Below, one piece after another: positions 3,060 to 31,969 of a stretch of DNA of 33,800 nt. The notes beneath the pieces were generated by a model, which saw nothing but the letters and a program-made list of their open reading frames with translations, ran no database searches and was not told where the DNA came from. Each line of letters opens with the position of its first letter. Position 1 is the first letter of the stretch. The position numbers and the translations under genes are program-made. The DNA lies in assembly GCA_027483995.1 (NCBI GenBank), contig JAIXTK010000190.1, positions 1-33,800 of the forward strand, in the 5' to 3' direction. The stretch is from Acetobacteraceae bacterium. GTDB lineage: Bacteria > Pseudomonadota > Alphaproteobacteria > Acetobacterales > Acetobacteraceae.

Positions 3060-5975
3060 ATGGCCGAGCCCACCCCGCCCCCGATCACCGCGCAGGACGC
3101 GCTGGCGCAGGAACAGGCCGCCCTGCACCTGCCACCGGGCGAGGCCACCGCGCTGTGCCTCTCCGGCGGTGGCATCCGCAGCGCCGCCTTCTGCCTCGGC
3201 GTTGTCCAGGGCCTCGCCCGCATGGGCGTGCTGAAGCAGTTCCACTACCTCTCCACCGTCTCCGGCGGCGGCTATATCGGCGGCTACCTCTCCGCCCGCC
3301 TGCGCGCCCTCGATTGGAACGCCGATGCCCTGCAGCAGGAGCTGAGGCAGGGCGGCAACGCCCCCTGGCTCACCCGTCTGCGCCAGTCCGGCAACTTCCT
3401 CACCCCCCAGCTCGGCCTGTTCTCGCTGGATACCTGGACCGGCCTCACCCTCTACACCCGCAACCTGCTGCTCACCTGGGCCTCCCTGCTGCCCTGGATG
3501 CTGCTGCTGGTGCTCGGCTTCATCGCCTACCGCACGCTGGTCGCGGTCGCCGGCACCGCGCATTTGTTCGCCTTCGCCGCCCTTGCCGCCGGCGCCATCG
3601 GGCTCGTTGTCAGCACCGTATGGCTCTGCACCGGCTTGCCGAGCCACCACCGCGATGCCAGCGGCGCGCCCCGCTCTTCCAGCCCCGGCCCCACCCCCAC
3701 CACGATCGCCCTCGTCGCCCTGCTTTGGCCGATGCTGCTCCCCTTCGCCCTGGGGAGCTGGCAGAACGATCACGGCGGGTTCGACCCGCGGCCGATCGAG
3801 ACATTCGCCGCCGTGAAGGTCGCGGGGCTCTACGCCGCTTGCGTCCTGGCCGGCTACGGCATTGCCCTCTCCCGGGCGGCCGAGGACGTGAAGGGGCGCT
3901 ACCACAGCAATTTTGCCCCCTGGCTCCTGGCCACGCTGTTCTCCGCCCTGCTCACCGCCACCGGCCCCTGGCTGCTCATCGCCTATGTGCCGCAGAAATC
4001 CTGGGTCGAGGTGCTCGCCGTTGCCGGCCCAGCCTGGTTCGCGCTCGCCATGATCATCCATGCCGGCACCTTCATGGGCCTGCGCCGCAAGGCCCCCGCC
4101 ATCACCGCCGAGCTGGACCGCGAATGGACCGCGCGCATGAGCGCCCGCATCCAGCTCCTCTCCGTCGCCGTCGCACTGGCCGGCTTCCCCATCCTTGCCA
4201 TGCCCGATTGGTTCATCCCCGAAGGCAATGCGGTCTGGACCACCGGCGCATGGCGCAGCCTGCTCACCCCGCTGCTCTCCGGCCCCGCCGTCGCCTGGCT
4301 CGGCCACCAGGCCTTCACCCGCATGTCCGCGCTGAACGAGCTGGATGCCGGCTGGCGCGACAAGGCGATGGATTTCGGCCTTGCCCTGCTGGCCGGCGTC
4401 TTCCTTGCATTCATGCTCGCCATTTCCAGCGCGGTGCTCCAGTCCTACGTGCTGGGCCCGGTGCAGCAGGGCATCATGGGCCTGGTGCAGGCACCGCCGC
4501 CGCCCACCTGCACCGTGGCGCCAGACCCGGCGCGCTGGTGCCTCACCAGCTTCTATTGTTCGGGCAGCGCCCTGCCGGCCCCCGCCCCCTCCTGCCGGCC
4601 CACGCCGCACAATGTTCCGATCCTCCTGATGCTGGGCCTCCAGGCCGGCCTCGCCCTGTTGCTGATCGCCGCCGCCCGCATCCTCTGCATCGACAACAAC
4701 CGCTTCACCCTGCACGCGGTCTATCGCAACCGCCTCGTCCGCGGTTTCCTCGGCCCCGCCCGCGACCCGCAAAACCCGGCCACCCGCCGCAATCCGGAGC
4801 CCGTCACCGGCTTCGACCCGAACGACGACCTCCGCCTCGCCGCACTGGGCCTGCACGAGGCCGAGGGAAAGCCGCGCCCGCTTTTCCCCGTCATCAACAT
4901 CGCGGTCAACGTCACCCGCACCTCCAATCCGCTCTGGGCCGAACGCAAGGCGCTGTCCTTCACCGCCACCCCGCTGCATTGCGGCTACTACCTGCCGCTC
5001 GCCGAGCCCCAGCCGGCCACGGCACCCCCCGCCACCTATGTCGCCACGCGGCATTTCAACCACAGCCTGCGCGGCGAGACGGACACCACGCCCAAGGACC
5101 AGCAGGGCCTCGGCCTCGGCACGGCCATCACCATCTCCGGCGCCGCGGCCAGCCCGAATTCCGGCTACCACTCGCGCCCGGCCACCGCCTTCCTGATGAC
5201 CCTGTTCAACGTCCGCCTCGGCCTCTGGGCACCCAACACGCACCACCTGCCACCCGCGCCCGATCACGCCCCCGGCGCGGTGTCCGCCTGGCTGGGCAAG
5301 GCGGCGCGCGCCGCCCTCGGCCTGCTGGCATCCACCCCCCACCGCCGCCCCGCGCTGGAGGGCCTGAACCCCGCCGAGCAGCGCCTTGCCCTGCTCAACG
5401 ACCTCACCGGCAATACCTCGATCGACCGCAGCGCCATCTACCTCTCCGATGGCGGCCATTTCGACAATCTCGGCCTCTACGAGATGCTGCGCCGCCGCTG
5501 CACCCGCATCGTCGTCGTCGATGCCGCGCATGATCCGGACTGCAGCTTCGCCGATCTCGGCCAGAGCCTGCGCAAGGCCGCGATCGACCTCGGCGCCACG
5601 GTTTCCATCACCGCCACCCATATCGGCCCGCGCAAGCCGGGCACCGAGAATCCCCGCCTGCTGGGCTTCGCCGTCGGCACCATCGACTACCCCGCCACCG
5701 ACACGGCGCCGGCCGCGAAGGGCGAGCTGCTCTACATCAAGCCCACCTGGCTCGCCGACCTGCCGATGGATGTGCGCGCCTATGGCGCCGCGGAGAAGGA
5801 GTTCCCCCAGCAACCCACCTCCGACCAGTGGTTCAGCGAAAGCCAGTTCGAAAGCTACCGCAGCCTCGGCACCCACCAGCTGCAGGCGCTGGCGCTGGAG
5901 ACCGGGCGGGATCTCTCCCTGGAAACCCTGTTCAAGCGCGCCGAAGCCAGGCTCGCCGCCACCCCCGCCCCCTGA
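3060..5975 (+). CDS. Large membrane-embedded patatin-like phospholipase family protein
   Basis: A 971-residue protein with a split patatin-type lipase domain. The N-terminal part has the oxyanion motif SGGGIRSA (residues 35-42) and the nucleophile segment LSTVSGGGYIGG with Ser68. Here the usual first Gly of GxSxG is Thr. The catalytic Asp motif DGGHFDNLG lies far downstream at Asp797. Between them, at about residues 130-545, are roughly eight to nine hydrophobic segments that look like transmembrane helices, e.g. LLPWMLLLVLGFIAYRTLV and LLMLGLQAGLALLLIAAA. The likely role is acyl-ester hydrolysis at a membrane; the substrate is unknown. The start ATG follows GAGGCAG. It lies 56 bp after the alpha/beta hydrolase on the same strand and may be co-transcribed, linking two putative lipid hydrolases. 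The long antisense ORF in the track is a GC-bias shadow. Confidence 0.88.
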   Translation: MAEPTPPPITAQDALAQEQAALHLPPGEATALCLSGGGIRSAAFCLGVVQGLARMGVLKQFHYLSTVSGGGYIGGYLSARLRALDWNADALQQELRQGGNAPWLTRLRQSGNFLTPQLGLFSLDTWTGLTLYTRNLLLTWASLLPWMLLLVLGFIAYRTLVAVAGTAHLFAFAALAAGAIGLVVSTVWLCTGLPSHHRDASGAPRSSSPGPTPTTIALVALLWPMLLPFALGSWQNDHGGFDPRPIETFAAVKVAGLYAACVLAGYGIALSRAAEDVKGRYHSNFAPWLLATLFSALLTATGPWLLIAYVPQKSWVEVLAVAGPAWFALAMIIHAGTFMGLRRKAPAITAELDREWTARMSARIQLLSVAVALAGFPILAMPDWFIPEGNAVWTTGAWRSLLTPLLSGPAVAWLGHQAFTRMSALNELDAGWRDKAMDFGLALLAGVFLAFMLAISSAVLQSYVLGPVQQGIMGLVQAPPPPTCTVAPDPARWCLTSFYCSGSALPAPAPSCRPTPHNVPILLMLGLQAGLALLLIAAARILCIDNNRFTLHAVYRNRLVRGFLGPARDPQNPATRRNPEPVTGFDPNDDLRLAALGLHEAEGKPRPLFPVINIAVNVTRTSNPLWAERKALSFTATPLHCGYYLPLAEPQPATAPPATYVATRHFNHSLRGETDTTPKDQQGLGLGTAITISGAAASPNSGYHSRPATAFLMTLFNVRLGLWAPNTHHLPPAPDHAPGAVSAWLGKAARAALGLLASTPHRRPALEGLNPAEQRLALLNDLTGNTSIDRSAIYLSDGGHFDNLGLYEMLRRRCTRIVVVDAAHDPDCSFADLGQSLRKAAIDLGATVSITATHIGPRKPGTENPRLLGFAVGTIDYPATDTAPAAKGELLYIKPTWLADLPMDVRAYGAAEKEFPQQPTSDQWFSESQFESYRSLGTHQLQALALETGRDLSLETLFKRAEARLAATPAP

Positions 5976-9009: not shown

Positions 9010-10182
9010 ATGACCGACACCCTCGCCCTGATCCAACCCCTCGTCCCCGAGCTCACCGCCATCCGCCGCGATATCCATGCCCACCCGGAAATGGGCCTGG
9101 AGGAAACCCGCACCGCCGCCCTGGTGGCGAGCAAGCTGCGCGAATGGGGCGTCGAATACGTGGAAGGCATCGGCAAGACCGGCCTCGTCGCCACCATCCG
9201 CGGCAAGCTCCCCGGCCAGCGCGCCATCGGCCTGCGGGCCGACATGGATGCGCTCGCCATCGTGGAGCAGACCAACGCGCCCCACGCCTCCACCTACCAA
9301 GGCGTGATGCATGCCTGCGGGCATGACGGCCACACCACCATGCTCCTCGGCGCCGCCCGCGCGCTGAAGGAGAACCCGGATTTTGCCGGTACCGTCCACC
9401 TGATCTTCCAGCCCGCCGAGGAAGGCCGCGGCGGCGCGCTCGCCATGCTGGCCGATGGCCTGCTGGAGCGTTTCCCCTGCGACACGCTCTACGGCATGCA
9501 TTGCTCCCCCGGCATGCCCATCGGCCAGTTCGGCATCCGCAAGGGCGCGGCCATGGCCGGCGGCTGCATGTTCCACGTCACCTTCACCGGCAAGGGCGGC
9601 CATGGCGGCGCCACCCCGCATCTCTCGATCGACCTCTCGATCATCCAGGCCCACTTCGTTCTCGGCCTGCAAACCATCGTCGGCCGCAACATCTCCGCCT
9701 TCGACCCTGCCGTGATCAGCGTTGGCCATATCGGCGGCGGCGACCGCCAGTCCGCCAACGTCATGCCCGCCGAAATGACCGTCTCCGGCACCGCACGCCA
9801 CTACAACGACGCCACCAAGGAGATCATCGAGCGCCGCATCACCGAACTCGCCGAAGGCCTGGCCAAGCTGCACGGCGCCGGCGTAACCGTGGACTTCACC
9901 TGGGTCGCGGAACCGCTGGTGAACGCCGATGGCCCCACCGATGTGGCCAAGGCCGCCGCCGCCTCCGTGGTGGGCGAAGCTGCGGTGAACCCCAACATGC
10001 CCGCCACCGGCGGCGGCGAAGACTTCGCCTACATGCTGAAGCAGAAGCAGGGCGCCTTCATCCGCATCGGCAACGGAGCCTCCTCCGGCGTGCATACGCC
10101 CACCTTCGACTTCAACGACGAGGCGATCCCGTATGGGGTGGCGTATTGGGTGGAGCTGGTGAAGCAGGAATTGAAGCTATGA
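9010..10182 (+). CDS. M20 family amidohydrolase (hippuricase / IAA-amino acid hydrolase-like)
   Basis: A 390-residue metallo-amidohydrolase of the M20D type. It hydrolyses N-acyl amino acids or related amides in known members, and the substrate here is not predictable. Visible motifs in order are RRDIHAHPEMGLEE, LRADMDAL, the metal-binding GVMHACGHDGHTTML, FQPAEEGRGGA with the catalytic Glu, the dimerisation-domain motif GKGGHGG, and the C-terminal GGGEDFAYM metal ligand. Length is normal for the family. The ATG at 9010 (MTDTLALIQP) is chosen because the upstream extension to 8851 crosses the divergent spacer and repeat copy B. Its TGA stop lies exactly where the first AT-rich intergenic element begins. 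Confidence 0.95.
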   Translation: MTDTLALIQPLVPELTAIRRDIHAHPEMGLEETRTAALVASKLREWGVEYVEGIGKTGLVATIRGKLPGQRAIGLRADMDALAIVEQTNAPHASTYQGVMHACGHDGHTTMLLGAARALKENPDFAGTVHLIFQPAEEGRGGALAMLADGLLERFPCDTLYGMHCSPGMPIGQFGIRKGAAMAGGCMFHVTFTGKGGHGGATPHLSIDLSIIQAHFVLGLQTIVGRNISAFDPAVISVGHIGGGDRQSANVMPAEMTVSGTARHYNDATKEIIERRITELAEGLAKLHGAGVTVDFTWVAEPLVNADGPTDVAKAAAASVVGEAAVNPNMPATGGGEDFAYMLKQKQGAFIRIGNGASSGVHTPTFDFNDEAIPYGVAYWVELVKQELKL

Positions 10183-10315
10183 AAGAGTCTTCTTTTTTCT
10201 GAAGAAAAAAGAAGCAAAAAAGACTTCATTCGCTTGCACGCGTGCCGGTCACCCAGCACGCGTGCCAGCATACAAAAGTTTTTTGGTTCTTTTTTTCAAA
10301 AAAGAACCTCTTTCC
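10183..10315. repeat. AT-rich intergenic hairpin element, copy 1
   Basis: First of three related elements. The left hairpin is CTTCTTTTTTC-TGAA-GAAAAAAGAAG (about 10190-10214). The right hairpin is GGTTCTTTTTT-TC-AAAAAAGAACC (10285-10308), preceded by AAAAGTTTTTT. The left hairpin is one base pair longer than in copies 2 and 3, with an extra T in one arm and an extra A in the other, so pairing is kept. The core holds GCACGCGTGC twice, a self-palindrome that can also pair with itself. The element lies between convergent genes, the amidohydrolase and the acetamidase-like gene, and could act as a bidirectional terminator. Confidence 0.88.
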
Positions 10316-11222
10316 TGAACCCTGCATTCGCCTTCGGAAACTCCATCCTGGCACTGCTGCCAATGCCGGTCAGACAGAGCTGGTTCACCTTCAGATCCCC
10401 AGCGATCGACAGCAGCGCGAACGCCTCGCTGGCACTGACGCCGAGCTTGGCTTGCATCAACTCCATCATCGACCGCGTGGCGATCTGCGCCGCTTCCTCG
10501 AAGCGCGGTGCCGCGGCGGTGGTGATCCACAGCCGGTCGGTTTCCATCCAGGGCCATTCGGTGGCCGCACCCTTGTCCACGCTCATCCGCAGGTGCACCC
10601 GCCCGCCGATCTCCACCCCGCTGCCGCTGATCTCGCCGTCGCCCATCGTGGCGTGCAGGTCACCGACGTAGAACTGCGCCCCGGGCACGCGCACCGGCAA
10701 ATGGATGCGGGTGCCCACGGCCAGGCGGTTGTTGTCCATGTTGCCGCCGTGCCGGCCGATATAGGCGGTAGCGATCGCCTCCTCTGGCGCGCAGGCCATC
10801 ACCCCGATCATCGGCCGGATCGGCAGGCGTAGGGACCCGAACTCGGCCTGGTTGTCCCGGATGTGCACGATGGTGGTCTCGGTGCGGTTCACCAGCCCGG
10901 TGATCAGCCCGGCATCCGGCTTCACCATCACGAAGCCCTGCTGGTCCAGATCGATGCGCAGCACCTCCACCACCAGCGCATCGCCGGGGGCGGCGCCCTC
11001 GATGCGGATCGGCCCGGTGGCGGGGTTGGTCCTGGGATACCGGTCGGTGAACACCGGCGCCGTCGGCGCCTCGTCCTCCGGCCGCTTCACCTTGCCGGAG
11101 CGCGCATCGTGCGTCTCCACCATCACCTCGCAGGGTGCCTGCACCACCAGCCTGGGCGGGGCATCGGGATCGATCGCGAAGGCAAGCTCGCTACGGTCGA
11201 GGAAGTGGATTGGCGCTGGCAT
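10296..11222 (-). CDS. Acetamidase/formamidase family protein
   Basis: A 308-residue protein of the FmdA/AmdA family, whose known members hydrolyse short amides such as formamide and acetamide to the acid and ammonia. Family landmarks are ATAYIGRHGGNMDNN, the GDLHATMGDGE segment and GGRVHLRMSVDKG, with a C-terminal part LLSIAGDLKVNQLC. The start MPAPIHFLDRSELAF is the first ATG after the divergent spacer. Nitrogen release fits the neighbouring M20 amidohydrolase, but a joint pathway is only inferred. Oddly, the last residues (EVLF) and the TGA stop are encoded within intergenic element copy 1. Confidence 0.9.
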   Translation of the reverse strand: MPAPIHFLDRSELAFAIDPDAPPRLVVQAPCEVMVETHDARSGKVKRPEDEAPTAPVFTDRYPRTNPATGPIRIEGAAPGDALVVEVLRIDLDQQGFVMVKPDAGLITGLVNRTETTIVHIRDNQAEFGSLRLPIRPMIGVMACAPEEAIATAYIGRHGGNMDNNRLAVGTRIHLPVRVPGAQFYVGDLHATMGDGEISGSGVEIGGRVHLRMSVDKGAATEWPWMETDRLWITTAAAPRFEEAAQIATRSMMELMQAKLGVSASEAFALLSIAGDLKVNQLCLTGIGSSARMEFPKANAGFRKEVLF

Positions 11223-12368: not shown

Positions 12369-13427
12369 TCAGGCGGCGCAGATGAAGCCCCCGCCCAGCA
12401 CGCGGTCGCCCTGGTAGAACACGCAGGCCTGCCCTGGCGCGGCCAGCGCCGGCACCGCCAGATGCACCTCGGCCCCCCCGGCGGTGGGCACCACGCGCGC
12501 CGGGCGCAGCGTGTCGCGCGCACGCAGCTTCACGTGGCAATCGAACGCGGCGGGTGCCACCAGCCAGTTCACCTCGCGCAGCTTCACCACCGGGCTGCCG
12601 GCGGTGGGCGCACCCACGACCACCCGGCGGCGCGCGGCATCGAGCCCCACCACCACGCGGCGCGTGCCTTCGTGCTGTGCGGCGGCGCCGAGGCGCTTGG
12701 CCTGGCCAACCGTGTAGCGCGCCACGCCCTCATGCATGCCGATCACCGTGCCGGCTTCGTCGACGATCTCCCCGGGCTGCACCGCATCCGGGCGGAACCT
12801 GGCCACCACCTCGGCATAGCTGCCGGAGGGCACGAAGCAGATATCCTGGCTGTCCGGCTTGCGCGCCACCGGCAGGCCGAGCCTGGCGGCCTCTGCCCGC
12901 ACCGCGTCCTTGTTCGGCATGCCGCCCAGGGGAAACAGGCTGCGGTTAAGCTGCTGCTGCGTGGTGGCGAACAGGAACCAGCTCTGGTCGCGCGCTTCAT
13001 CCACCGCGCGGTGCAGCTCCGCCCCCTGCGCGCCATCGACGCGGCGCACATAATGACCGGTGGCCATCGCCTCCGCGCCCAGGTCGCTGGCCAGGGCGAT
13101 CAGGTCGCCGAACTTCACGCTCTGGTTGCAGCGCACGCAGGGCACCGGGGTTTGCCCGGCGGCGTAGCTGTCGGCGAAATCCTGCATCACCGCGGCGCGG
13201 AACCGTGCCTCGGCATCGATCACGTAATGCGGGATGCCCAGACGATCGGCGACGGAGCCGGCATCGTAGATGTCCTGCCCGGCGCAGCAGGCGCCCTTGC
13301 GGCCGACGGCGGCGCCGTGGTCGTAGAGTTGCAGCGTGACGCCGATCACGTCGTGGCCAGCCTCGGCCATCAGCCCGGCCACCACCGAACTGTCGACGCC
13401 GCCGGACATGGCTACCAGGATGCGCAT
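12369..13427 (-). CDS. mnmA: tRNA-specific 2-thiouridylase MnmA
   Basis: MnmA activates U34 of certain tRNAs (Lys, Glu, Gln) with ATP and inserts sulfur to make 2-thiouridine. The 352-residue protein has the PP-loop SGGVDSS (residues 8-14). The nucleophile C97 is in PVPCVRCN and the second catalytic cysteine C197 in SQDICFVPSG, both in the expected places. The C-terminal part includes ARYTVGQAKRLG and a beta-barrel domain. It is the last gene of the cysteine desulfurase-ferredoxin cluster, which would provide the sulfur. Its start codon lies 9 bp from the edge of intergenic element copy 2. The only Shine-Dalgarno-like sequence, AGGA, straddles that edge, so the element may shape its translation. 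Confidence 0.97.
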   Translation of the reverse strand: MRILVAMSGGVDSSVVAGLMAEAGHDVIGVTLQLYDHGAAVGRKGACCAGQDIYDAGSVADRLGIPHYVIDAEARFRAAVMQDFADSYAAGQTPVPCVRCNQSVKFGDLIALASDLGAEAMATGHYVRRVDGAQGAELHRAVDEARDQSWFLFATTQQQLNRSLFPLGGMPNKDAVRAEAARLGLPVARKPDSQDICFVPSGSYAEVVARFRPDAVQPGEIVDEAGTVIGMHEGVARYTVGQAKRLGAAAQHEGTRRVVVGLDAARRRVVVGAPTAGSPVVKLREVNWLVAPAAFDCHVKLRARDTLRPARVVPTAGGAEVHLAVPALAAPGQACVFYQGDRVLGGGFICAA

Positions 13428-13436
13428 GGGGGGATC

Positions 13437-13575
13437 CTAAGCAAGGATTCTTCTTTTTCTGAAGAAAAAGAAGCAAAAAGACTTTTATTCGTTTGCAGCG
13501 TAACCTGTCGGGAGCCCCCGGCCCAATTCGAAAAGTTTTTTGGTTCTTTTTTTCAAAAAAGAGCCGCTTGCTTAG
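13437..13575. repeat. AT-rich intergenic hairpin element, copy 2, with perfect 9-bp terminal inverted repeats
   Basis: Ends are CTAAGCAAG (13437-13445) and CTTGCTTAG (13567-13575), a perfect inverted repeat. The left hairpin is CTTCTTTTTC-TGAA-GAAAAAGAAG (13450-13473), then GCAAAAAGACTTTT. The right hairpin GGTTCTTTTTTTC...GAGCC spans 13542-13565, with one A-to-G change that leaves a G-T wobble on one strand. The core differs from the other copies and holds its own CGGG-AGCC-CCCG stem. Unlike copies 1 and 3 it lies between two same-strand genes, ferredoxin and mnmA. The TAA stop of the ferredoxin gene is inside its terminal repeat. Confidence 0.9.
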
Positions 13576-13904
13576 CCGGCCAACATGTTCCGACTGCCGG
13601 CCGGCAGCTTCACCACCAGCCCATCCAGCTCATCGCTCATCACGATCTGGCAGCCGAGGCGGGATGTCTTTTCCAGCCCGAAGGCGAGGTCGAGCATGTC
13701 TTCCTCATCCTCGGTTGGGTCGCCGAGCTTCTCAAACCACGCGGCGTCCACGATCACGTGGCAGGTGGAACACGCGAGGGAGCCTTCGCAGGCGCCTTCG
13801 ATATCCACGCCGTGCTTGTGCGCGATCTCCAGCACCGACAGGCCGAGCGGGGCGTCCACCTCGCGCCGGGCGCCGTCGCGATCGATGAAAATCATCTTGG
13901 GCAT
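13572..13904 (-). CDS. fdx: 2Fe-2S ferredoxin, adrenodoxin/ISC type
   Basis: A 110-residue plant/vertebrate-fold ferredoxin of the adrenodoxin group, an electron carrier usually serving iron-sulfur cluster assembly. Cluster ligands are C39, C45, C48 and C85 ([14 protein letters not shown] and SRLGCQI), with the spacing C-x5-C-x2-C-x36-C expected for the group. The acidic partner-binding helix is [13 protein letters not shown]. The start is [11 protein letters not shown] at 13904; the long track ORF upstream is the desulfurase region in another frame. It begins 8 bp after the stop of the IscS-like gene, so they are in one operon. The stop TAA lies within the terminal repeat of intergenic element copy 2. 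Confidence 0.96.
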
Positions 13905-27300: not shown

Positions 27301-27399
27301 CCGGCGGTTGACGTGGCGCAATTGCACGCCACCTTCGCAGCGTTGGCGGAACAGGTGCGCGCATGCTTCGCGCGCCATGTCGGGGAGATCGACGGATGA
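24394..27399 (+). CDS. glnE: Bifunctional glutamine synthetase adenylyltransferase/deadenylase
   Basis: GlnE adds and removes AMP on glutamine synthetase in response to PII proteins, tuning nitrogen assimilation. The product is about 1001 residues. Both nucleotidyltransferase domains show their signatures: MGKLGARELNYSSDVDVILIHD in the N-terminal deadenylylase half, and VVMGKAGGREMMAGSDLDMM in the C-terminal adenylylase half. Each is followed by RLRP segments (DLRLRPDP and DMRLRPSG) and helical regulatory regions (GGIREIEFLAQ and GGQIEVEFVAQ). The start ATG at 24394 (MPHSSALPATP) is chosen because earlier in-frame codons run antisense into the AsmA-like gene; it has no obvious ribosome binding site. 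It overlaps the next gene by the 4 nt ATGA, indicating coupling. Confidence 0.96.
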   Translation: MPHSSALPATPSPDAKTGPSLLSGTWPKPADTEAAGRLVERFSDLGRSEAKLARDPVVRAMLLAIGGNAPFLADLAIRDSAMLRAALRDGPDAVVAGIMAGLAAIPPTLARAQLASRLRAAKRAVSLLVALADIGGLWPLDKVTQALADLAEAGLSLSVAHLLRAAHDSGELTLPDRANPAHACGFTVLGMGKLGARELNYSSDVDVILIHDPAAGVYHGDAPVAFYTRMARGLVTLMEARDSDGYVFRTDLRLRPDPAATPPCIALPAAIAYYESMGQNWERAAMLKARPVAGDHALGHAFLEAIRPFIWRRHLDFAAVADIHAMKRRIDEHKGNRESAEVDPVARLLGHNVKLGIGGIREIEFLAQSLQLVWGGRDPTLRVLRTIEALRLLVRAGHVPRRTAGELAAAYRFLRRVEHRLQMVHDRQTHSLPEKPEQMAAFATFMGYDSAAAFADALLRHMARVRTAYGAVFEQIPELAPAAAGLVLDFRGVGEAPPETMASLSGLGFKEVERIVSAVRGWKSGRVRALRSPRAQELMDQVLPALLAALARQAQPDAAFNRWDSFLARLPAGVQLLSLFQRNPVLLDRIAGVLGAAPMLSDYLARTPAALEGLLDPAPSPDYARMLRLRLGDARVLEDAISIIRATVREEEFSLAVATMEGRLDADAAGKLRAALAEAALAALLPPVQEDFARRFGRVRGGGLALVVMGKAGGREMMAGSDLDMMIVYDHPEAVAQSTARAPARPLAASQWFIRAVHAYVAAVTAPDAEGPMFAVDMRLRPSGNKGPVAVSLAAFERYHGPAGAAEGGAWTWERMALTRARVIAGPPKLRARVEAAIQAAIAGAGEPARIRADATAMRARLLRDLPPSGPWDVKLRPGGQIEVEFVAQVLQLVHAAGVPSTPTTREALARLRDEGLLPADDAALLIRADRVWRTVQGLLRITYGRQPAEKLSEAAAATLLRAATAAGAPAVDVAQLHATFAALAEQVRACFARHVGEIDG

Positions 27400-27854
27400 G
27401 CGTGGACGCAGGCGATACCGCACCAGACTTCACCATGGCCGCCAGCGGCGGCCGATCCGTGAGCCTGGCGGGCCAGAAGGGAAAGCCCTTCGTGCTCTAC
27501 TTCTACCCCAAGGCGGATACGCCAGGCTGCACCAAGGAAGCCTGCGGCTTCGAGGAATCGCTGCCGCAGTTCAAGGGCATCGACGTGATCGGCGTCTCGC
27601 CCGATGCGATGCCGCCGATCGAGAAATTCGCCAAGAAGTACAACCTCACCTTCCCGCTCGCCTCGGACGCGGACAATGCCGTGGCCACCGCCTATGGCGT
27701 GTGGGTGGAGAAATCCATGTACGGCAAGAAATACATGGGCATCGAGCGCTCCACCTTCCTGATCGACAAATCCGGCAAGATCGCGAAGGCCTGGCGCAAG
27801 GTGAAGGTGGATGGCCACGCGGCCGAGGTGATGGCGGCGGCGGCCAGCCTGTAA
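27396..27854 (+). CDS. bcp: Thioredoxin-dependent peroxiredoxin (BCP/PrxQ type)
   Basis: A 152-residue peroxiredoxin that reduces hydrogen peroxide and organic peroxides using thioredoxin. The active-site stretch YPKADTPGCTKEACGF has peroxidatic Cys45 and, five residues on, resolving Cys50, the atypical 2-Cys PrxQ arrangement. LYFYPK before it and ERSTFLIDKSGKI after it are typical. The start MSVDAGDTAPDF overlaps the glnE stop by ATGA, so translation is probably coupled; the track start at 27363 lies inside glnE. Pairing of glnE and bcp is a gene-order observation, not a known pathway link. Its stop codon TAA is the first three bases of intergenic element copy 3. Confidence 0.96.
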   Translation: MSVDAGDTAPDFTMAASGGRSVSLAGQKGKPFVLYFYPKADTPGCTKEACGFEESLPQFKGIDVIGVSPDAMPPIEKFAKKYNLTFPLASDADNAVATAYGVWVEKSMYGKKYMGIERSTFLIDKSGKIAKAWRKVKVDGHAAEVMAAAASL

Positions 27855-27980
27855 GCAAGAGTCTTCTTTTTCTGAAGAAAAAGAAGCAAAAAGACTTTTG
27901 TACCTTTGCGCCGTGGCTAGCCCGGGCGCAAAGGTGTAAAAGTTTTTTGGTTCTTTTTTTCAAAAAAGAACCGCTTCCTT
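27852..27980. repeat. AT-rich intergenic hairpin element, copy 3
   Basis: It starts TAAGCAAGAGTCTTC; the left hairpin is CTTCTTTTTC-TGAA-GAAAAAGAAG and the right hairpin GGTTCTTTTTT-TC-AAAAAAGAACC is at 27949-27972. The inner part is also an inverted repeat: ACTTTTGTACCTTTGCGCC pairs with GGGCGCAAAGGTGTAAAAGT with few mismatches. The whole element could therefore fold as one long stem or as separate hairpins. It lies between convergent bcp and the MsrQ-like gene. The bcp stop is its left end, and the MsrQ-like ORF ends inside it. Confidence 0.9.
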
Positions 27981-28795
27981 CCTATTGCGAGTAGCACCAC
28001 GGCGCCCGCCAGCAGCAAAACCTGCGAGGCAGGTCGCCCCCAGGGGTCGAACCCCAGATTGGCATTCAGCACCCTCATGTAGGGCACCTTGGTGGCCAGC
28101 CCGTACCACGCCACCTCGGTCACCGCCGTGATCAGCGCCGCTGCCGGCGCCAGTGCGGCCAGCCGCCACAGCCCCGGCCGCTTCAGCACGCGCCAGAGCA
28201 TCAGCCAGGCGAAGATCCCGAACCAGAACACCGCGTCGCTGGCGTTCACCTTGGCCTGCAGCGCGTAGTGGAACATCGCCAGCACGGCCAGCGCATAGGC
28301 CCAGCGATGCAGCGCCTTCCAGCGCTGCCGCAGCCGCTTCTGCCAGCCATCGGTGGAGGTCCAGGCCAGCACCGACAGCCCCAGCACGGCCACGAACCCC
28401 ACCGTGAGGTAGAAGCGCAGGACGATCTCGCTGGCCACCGTCCACAGGTTCCACTTCTGGTCCGCCACGTAGAGCAACAGGTGCAGCAGGGCATAGAGCG
28501 CCGCCGCCACGCCCAGGATGCGCCGCACCTGCAGGATGCGCGGCCAGTCCAGCACCGCGCGGGCCGGCGTCACCGCCAGGGAGAACACCAGGAACCGCAC
28601 CGCCCAATCGCCGCTGCGATGGATCGCCTCGGTCAGCGGCCGCGGGCCGAGATCGGCCAGGCCCCAGCGCAGCACCAGCCACAGCGCGGGATAGAGCGCA
28701 AAGGCCAGCACCGCCGCCTTCAACGCGGAGAAGCGGCCGGCATGGTCGGTCCAGGGAATCCACTCGTTGCGCATCATCGCCGCCATCCACACCAT
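27917..28795 (-). CDS. MsrQ/YedZ-like heme-binding membrane protein (ferric reductase-like domain)
   Basis: A 292-residue integral membrane protein of the ferric reductase-like transmembrane group. The hydrophobic segments include AVLAFALYPALWLVLRWGL, VRFLVFSLAVTPARAVL, ILGVAAALYALLHLLLYVA, FYLTVGFVAVLGLSVLAW, ALHRWAYALAVLAMFHYAL and LLLAGAVVLLAIG. Histidines in LLHLLLY, ALHRWAY and MFHYAL are candidates for heme b ligands. MsrQ passes electrons to the periplasmic methionine sulfoxide reductase MsrP; no msrP is adjacent, so the partner is unknown. The start (MVWMAAMMRNEW) is uncertain among several Met codons. The last residues after LLAIGRK (RFFFEKKNQKTFTPLRPG) are encoded by intergenic element copy 3, so the native C-terminus was probably different. 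Confidence 0.85.
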   Translation of the reverse strand: MVWMAAMMRNEWIPWTDHAGRFSALKAAVLAFALYPALWLVLRWGLADLGPRPLTEAIHRSGDWAVRFLVFSLAVTPARAVLDWPRILQVRRILGVAAALYALLHLLLYVADQKWNLWTVASEIVLRFYLTVGFVAVLGLSVLAWTSTDGWQKRLRQRWKALHRWAYALAVLAMFHYALQAKVNASDAVFWFGIFAWLMLWRVLKRPGLWRLAALAPAAALITAVTEVAWYGLATKVPYMRVLNANLGFDPWGRPASQVLLLAGAVVLLAIGRKRFFFEKKNQKTFTPLRPG

Positions 28796-31296: not shown

Positions 31297-31500
31297 TCAG
31301 ACCAGCTTGAGGTTGGTGGCGGCGGCCTTGCCGCGCTCCATCGCCACGTCGTAGCTGACCTTCTGGCCGTCATTCAGGCCCTTCAGGCCCGCGGCCTGCA
31401 CGGCGGTGATGTGGACGAACACGTCCTTGCCGCCGTCAGACGGCATGATGAAGCCGTAGCCCTTGGTGGCGTTGAACCACTTCACGGTGCCCATAGCCAT
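31297..31500 (-). CDS. Cold-shock domain protein, CspA family (copy 1)
   Basis: A 67-residue single cold-shock domain that binds single-stranded RNA/DNA and melts mRNA structure. The RNA-binding motifs are KGYGFI (RNP1) and VFVHI (RNP2), after the conserved start GTVKWFNATKG. The start follows AGGAG with 9 nt spacing. It is about 81% identical by eye to the second copy 265 bp upstream; the C-terminal [14 protein letters not shown] is the same in both. They are probably products of a tandem duplication and may be differently expressed. The intervening 31501-31765 shows no gene and no clear promoter. Confidence 0.96.
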   Translation of the reverse strand: MAMGTVKWFNATKGYGFIMPSDGGKDVFVHITAVQAAGLKGLNDGQKVSYDVAMERGKAAATNLKLV

Positions 31501-31765: not shown

Positions 31766-31969
31766 TCAGGCCAGCTTGAGGTTCGTGGCAGCGGCCTTGC
31801 CGCGCTCCATCGCCACCTCGTAGCTAACCTTCTGCCCCTCGGTCAGGCCACGAAGCCCGGCCGCCTGAACTGCGGTGATGTGCACGAACACATCCTTGCC
31901 GCCATCCTGGGGCATGATGAAACCAAAGCCCTTCGTGGTGTTGAACCACTTCACAGTACCGATAGCCAT
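31766..31969 (-). CDS. Cold-shock domain protein, CspA family (copy 2)
   Basis: A 67-residue CspA-family protein starting [18 protein letters not shown], with RNP1 KGFGFI and RNP2 VFVHI. It differs from copy 1 mainly around residues 10-25 and 38-52, e.g. [15 protein letters not shown] against GLKGLNDGQKVSYDV. The ribosome binding site is weak (GGAG 11 nt before the ATG). A 7-bp hairpin, CTGTGCA...TGCACAG, lies in the leader 25 bp upstream of the start. Some csp leaders are known RNA thermosensors; whether this one is cannot be told. It sits downstream of groEL on the same strand behind two stem-loops, so it probably has its own promoter. Confidence 0.96.

Follow-up and report, generated by a model that had tools for sequence, protein, structure and literature searches.

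Why should each of several copies of a repeated element begin precisely where a gene ends? In the 33,800-nucleotide stretch of an Acetobacteraceae bacterium genome analyzed here (GCA_027483995.1, contig JAIXTK010000190.1; hereafter the window), an earlier note had pointed out three copies of an element, each with one end at a stop codon, and had proposed either that the element targets or carries stop codons, so that its insertion is harmless, or that its end evolved as part of the gene's terminator. The coincidence itself is confirmed for the three copies (Table 1): copy 3 opens with the TAA of the bcp gene, copy 2 does likewise, from its opposite end, with the TAA of a ferredoxin gene on the minus strand, and the corresponding position in copy 1 is the TGA of an amidohydrolase gene. 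On the evidence described below we think it rather probable that the element belongs to the REP/REPIN type of repeat, being dispersed, non-autonomous and built of three hairpins, and that it lies behind pre-existing stop codons, owes its place mainly to the survival of copies and functions as a hairpin at the 3' end of transcripts.

Table 1. Element copies in the window, parts of copy 3 and adjoining genes.
Feature	Position	Strand	Remarks
Element copy 1	10183..10317	+	directly 3' of the TGA (10180-10182) of an M20 amidohydrolase gene
Acetamidase/formamidase-like (FmdA-like) gene	10296..11222	-	TGA stop in the H3 loop of copy 1
tRNA thiouridylase (MnmA-like) gene	12369..13427	-	start codon 22 nt from H1 of copy 2
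Element copy 2	13438..13575	+	TAAGCAAG at each end; ferredoxin stop in the right end
2Fe-2S ferredoxin gene	13572..13904	-	TAA (13572-13574) within the right edge of copy 2
bcp-like peroxiredoxin (AhpC-TSA) gene	27396..27854	+	TAA stop coincides with the left edge of copy 3
Element copy 3, full	27852..27983	+	from the bcp TAA through the right CTTCCTTCC edge
Copy 3, left (NAAG)n edge	27852..27862	+	first tetrad, TAAG, contains the bcp stop TAA (27852-27854)
Copy 3, hairpin H1	27863..27886	+	CTTCTTTTTCTGAAGAAAAAGAAG; 10-bp stem
Copy 3, variable middle hairpin	27889..27948	+	A-tract/T-tract base AAAAAGACTTTT...AAAAGTTTTTT; 24 pairs
Copy 3, hairpin H3	27949..27972	+	GGTTCTTTTTTTCAAAAAAGAACC
Ferric-reductase-like membrane protein gene	27917..28795	-	frame crosses H3 of copy 3 and ends in its middle hairpin

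Structure and distribution of the element

The element is composed, in this order, of an (NAAG)n edge, the hairpin H1 (CTTCTTTTTCTGAAGAAAAAGAAG), an A-tract, a variable hairpin that is usually GC-rich and has AAAAAGACTTTT/AAAAGTTTTTT at its base, the hairpin H3 (GGTTCTTTTTTTCAAAAAAGAACC) and a (CTTN)n edge. H1 and H3 are AT-rich, near-invariant and inverted with respect to each other on either side of the middle. The edges, inspected as putative terminal inverted repeats of the kind that MITEs have, are mutually complementary and vary both in sequence and in number; the left one comprises one to three tetrads, and the outermost tetrad often holds the stop codon. Since TAA stops occur as the first tetrad of one, two or three NAAG units, TAAGCAAG, which had been taken for the fixed beginning of the element, is instead a common form of this variable edge. 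The whole of copy 3 is predicted to fold with -58.7 kcal/mol (z = -7.2), and the middles alone, compared with mononucleotide shuffles, reach z values whose median is -3.3, 58 of the 83 falling below -2. A search of the window with Rfam covariance models gave no match to the element and recovered only two tRNAs. In two other stretches (L078, about 3100-3180, and L087, about 60-130) an unrelated repeat, GGATTGCTTCGCT(T/G)CGCTCGCAATGACGA, is nested in the middle hairpin. The element is also relevant to annotation, because facing genes read into it and end there, as observed in copies 1 (H3 loop) and 3 (middle hairpin).

In the source genome (G000; 5.0 Mb in 501 contigs) about 150-200 copies are present. 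H3 has 90 exact sites and, at up to two mismatches, 313 strand-wise matches, which correspond to approximately 155 sites because a single site can match both strands; H1 reaches a comparable number (168 sites at up to three mismatches). Like REP elements, therefore, this is an extragenic palindromic repeat of high copy number. Comparable copy numbers were found in all eight congeners searched, and many copies also in G012 and G028, which represent two other genera of the family. The exact H1 and H3 pair occurs, among the matches listed, in Roseomonas sp. GC11, Pseudoroseomonas cervicalis, Pseudoroseomonas aestuarii, several Gluconacetobacter, Nguyenibacter, Acidomonas methanolica and freshwater MAGs. 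Literature searches for the element sequence and for terminator repeats of Acetobacteraceae returned nothing specific. Many contigs of the source genome end near a copy (for instance C113, C129, C193, C220 and C346), and the repeat thus probably breaks the assembly at these points.

Position relative to genes

The distances between element ends and stop codons were tabulated for 83 full copies in 80 stretches (719 kb) taken around copies, with genes called by a simple codon-usage model; the stretches were selected for containing the element, and the position statistics consequently describe the copies and not the genome. Of the 73 copies for which both neighbors were called, 67 have a stop codon no more than 17 nt from the hairpin core, against 12% expected for random non-coding positions of element-free gaps (p about 1e-54) or 18% when divergent gaps are left out. 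Counted by sides, 100 of 103 stop-facing ones fall within this distance, and in convergent pairs both stops adjoin the element in 27 of 28 cases, an arrangement expected for 3% of convergent positions. The coincidence pointed out for three copies is hence a property of copies throughout the genome, and the lack of enrichment that the earlier note had named as contrary evidence is decisively contradicted. Where a side faces a start codon, the distance varies between -27 and 473 nt.

The copies lie downstream of open reading frames in convergent and unidirectional contexts, as REP elements do, with 28 copies between convergent, 41 between co-directional and four between divergent neighbors. Divergent gaps thus hold 5% of the copies, compared with 34% expected by non-coding length, and convergent gaps 38%, compared with 10% expected by length. 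In co-directional pairs the next start is often only 4-30 nt away; such tandem copies often leave no room for a promoter before it, and their sites are tight in the more distant congener G008 as well.

Enrichment in convergent gaps and near-absence from divergent ones would be expected of ordinary bidirectional intrinsic terminators, evolved in place and found behind stop codons for the reason that terminators belong there, an explanation that we consider somewhat unlikely. The likeness extends to structure: the middle hairpin presents an A-tract, a stem and a T-tract on both strands, its GC-rich stem being followed by TTTTTT on the plus strand and TTTTT on the minus strand, and a simple terminator scan flags H1 and H3 too as terminator-like, with weak tails. 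That same scan, however, gave nine terminator-like sites where 6.4 were expected, and the convergent excess becomes slight when counted per available stop codon (p = 0.047). Moreover, the 41 co-directional copies stand where a strong terminator would be costly, one of them inside a pair of dipeptide-permease-like genes (L103; identified by eye). In contrast to intrinsic terminators, the element is repeated near-verbatim at about 150 loci, also within tight co-directional pairs; H1 and H3 recur unchanged at hundreds of loci, also in different genera, and can be absent from orthologous sites, which identifies them as dispersed repeats. An origin of the end within the gene's own terminator is unsupported for this reason, even though the element could nevertheless work as a terminator.

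Much of the stop coincidence follows from the tight packing of genes, as the median length of element-free gaps is 11 nt in convergent pairs; it is 18.5 nt in tandem ones. With such gaps a tolerated insertion is often forced beside a stop codon, and compactness by itself, with insertion anywhere, purifying selection sparing the harmless copies and no link to stop codons as such, could in principle account for the pattern. We find this sufficiency of compactness as doubtful as an origin by terminator evolution. The proportion of copies near stops (92% within 17 nt) far exceeds that of non-coding positions given above, longer gaps and divergent regions are avoided, and the identity and spacing of the stop codons described in the next section require something more.

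Similar positions were observed in other genomes, where 86 of 104 copies with both neighbors called have a stop within 17 nt, although these are mostly from freshwater MAGs that may belong to the same genus. Copies in the named genera have different NAAG edges, yet many of them are close to stops. For two copies on plasmids of Pseudoroseomonas cervicalis, the distance to stops annotated by PGAP is 3 and 8 nt in one and 5 nt in the other.

Stop codons and orthologues without the element

Stops adjacent to the element are TAA in 64 cases, TGA in 23 and TAG in 12, that is, 65% TAA, compared with 14% (78/549) among all other genes of the fetched stretches. The TAA stops are mostly located 3/4, 7/8 or 11/12 nt from the hairpin, in a register of 4 nt, and the outermost tetrad of the edge usually makes the gene's stop codon TAA where the element is present. 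TAA is likewise the commonest adjacent stop in the other genomes (62/116, compared with 154/717 overall, a figure that includes the adjacent ones).

Gene ends without the element allow the codon and its position to be considered separately. Twenty-six gene ends of the source genome were queried against G008, in which 17 proved to be without element-like sequence. At these 17 the G008 orthologue stops at the identical residue in 12 cases and within three residues in the others, and the stop codons are TGA (13) and TAG (4), never TAA; the same genes in the source genome end with TAA in 13 cases, TAG in two and TGA in two (Fisher p = 5e-6; hand tally). The shared position argues that the stop would predate the element, and the contrast between none and 13 of 17 argues that the edge supplies or converts the codon, so that TAA appears to accompany the element. 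Judging from these orthologues, the element seems only rarely to truncate or extend a gene. A model in which insertion shortens genes was rejected, the C-termini being of equal length in 12 of 17 cases. The earlier note's proposal of an element that targets or carries stops for harmless insertion is accordingly sustained in one part, the provision of TAA by the edge, and fails in another, the position of the stop apparently being older than the element.

Where the same next gene follows and the G008 gap is compact, the net gain with the element is 68 to 140 nt; these compact gaps measure at most 35 nt in all but one case (68 nt). The change was probably a gain in the source genome and not a loss in G008. 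At the sites of copies 1 and 2, G008 lacks the element, and its stop codon, TAG, is identically placed. At the site of copy 3, bcp ends in L-R-stop in G008 and in L-stop in the source genome, and the facing gene, which reads into the element in the latter, has an orthologue in G008 that stops before it.

Apparent exchange of middles, and mobility

Against G006, which is approximately 95% identical to the source genome, 29 of 30 queried sites were found, 26 occupied and three empty. None of the three empty sites is clean, the differences exceeding the element, and therefore no target duplication can be read from them. In 24 measurable pairs, identity is 98.7% in H1 and H3, 94.7% in the flanks and 79% in the middles, several of which have been replaced outright. 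The site of copy 1 (10228-10275 compared with L132, L134 and L135) has a CACGCGTGCC-type middle in the source genome, whereas G006 and G001 share one of GATGCGG type and G002 carries one of TTTGCGCCCGG type, with H1, H3 and the genes hardly altered. These types are found again at other loci of the source genome. The pattern suggests that copies exchange their middles, with gene conversion as the probable route. Of the point changes that distinguish the middle stems of G000 and G006, most were uncompensated (one double change, 19 G-U pairs and 50 broken pairs), which is evidence against strong selection on the sequence of this stem.

A stronger version of these events may be envisaged, in which the element actively targets stop codons, or the TGA/TAG junctions of abutting genes, rewrites them to TAA and has its middles exchanged through gene conversion over H1 and H3. 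We regard this combination as improbable; if true, it would make the element a mobile, modular 3'-end cassette common to Acetobacteraceae. Chance or a gene-calling artefact, which a home-made, simple codon-usage caller and stretches chosen for holding the element might invite, is of negligible probability given p values of 1e-24 to 1e-54 and the agreement of conserved protein C-termini, window gene calls supported by Pfam matches and the PGAP-annotated Pseudoroseomonas plasmids.

No transposase or insertion mechanism was identified for the element. RAYT transposase genes (PF01797) occur in G000, G001 and G006, where no parts of the element flank them, but not in the element-rich G002-G005, G008, G012 and G028. 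RAYT was consequently rejected as the mobilizer, being patchy, uncorrelated with copy number and unflanked by copies, and the usual mobilizer of REPINs is thus unsupported here.

Another repeat family, GGCCAGGGGCCTTGCCCCTGGACCCC...GGGTCCAGGGCAGAGCCCTGGCC, which is GC-rich, forms several hairpins and has edges of the same AAGN/CTTN type, was seen at 1500-1780 of the window and at about 5140-5320 of stretch L076. A repeat of this type also occupies the site of copy 2, after the ferredoxin stop, in G005, G003 and G007 (L137, L138 and L144).

Comparison with known repeats and putative function

A survey of tagged REPs from 2013 reports that convergent REPs (conv-REPs) lie mostly under 20 bp from both 3' ends, that the termini of GTAG REPs often supply the TAG stop of flanking ORFs, and that CGTC repeats are missing from Acetobacteraceae (PMC3733652). 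The present element likewise hugs and donates stops; it differs from GTAG and CGTC REPs in having three hairpins, in donating TAA through its (NAAG)n edge and in lacking a tag, GTAG and CGTC being found beside the hairpins only 2 and 5 times over 83 copies. Stop-hugging and stop donation are therefore already published for GTAG REPs, and what is new is a tag-less Acetobacteraceae family that donates TAA, which extends this habit to repeats that do not track RAYT. A REPIN, as described in 2011 (PMC3116915), has a conserved palindrome at each end, the two being inverted, and between them a spacer that is less conserved, and the whole takes on a hairpin fold. The element shares the two inverted, conserved palindromic ends and the less conserved spacer; in contrast to REPINs, it is unlinked to RAYT, its ends are perfect, AT-rich hairpins, its spacer is a self-complementary hairpin that is apparently replaced wholesale, and its placement in extragenic space is not random.

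We hypothesize that placement is set mainly by the survival of copies, because, where genes are packed this tightly, the few bases behind a stop codon are the chief DNA that can be spared. A preference of insertion or recombination for stop junctions may sharpen this placement, and so may selection for TAA close to the hairpin. Once transcribed, the element would form a 3'-end hairpin that protects or processes the mRNA, and it could provide partial, two-way termination of transcription, as proposed for REP elements. From its sequence and context, such a transcribed 3'-end hairpin, with an mRNA-end role and partial termination, is the most likely putative function, favored over that of a dedicated terminator. 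Strong termination seems doubtful, since copies also occur within tight operon-like pairs.

An effect on ribosomes at stop codons within 15 nt is possible by analogy. According to PMC12306157, which cites its reference 17, a REP no more than 15 nt from a stop reportedly stalls ribosomes, and such E. coli REPs reportedly lower the expression of the upstream gene; the same source places 260 of 496 E. coli REPs, or 446 of 4,072 by RepRanger, that near a stop. The element resembles them in having a hairpin within 15 nt of the stop codon and differs in that nearly all of its stop-facing sides are near one.

The element leaves a clear, measured signature, a conserved stop position with the codon changed to TAA. 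Together, hairpins kept across genera and a middle that is apparently exchanged offer a tractable system in which to ask whether such repeats are selfish survivors or useful parts of 3' untranslated regions.

Two minor observations may be added. The window contains two 204-bp direct repeats, 84% identical (31297-31500 and 31766-31969), each overlapping a small minus-strand gene call. In a phage collection, a Microviridae record from cattle blood (MG945182.1:5907-5944) includes a 38-nt stretch that matches the element's H3 side at 97% identity.
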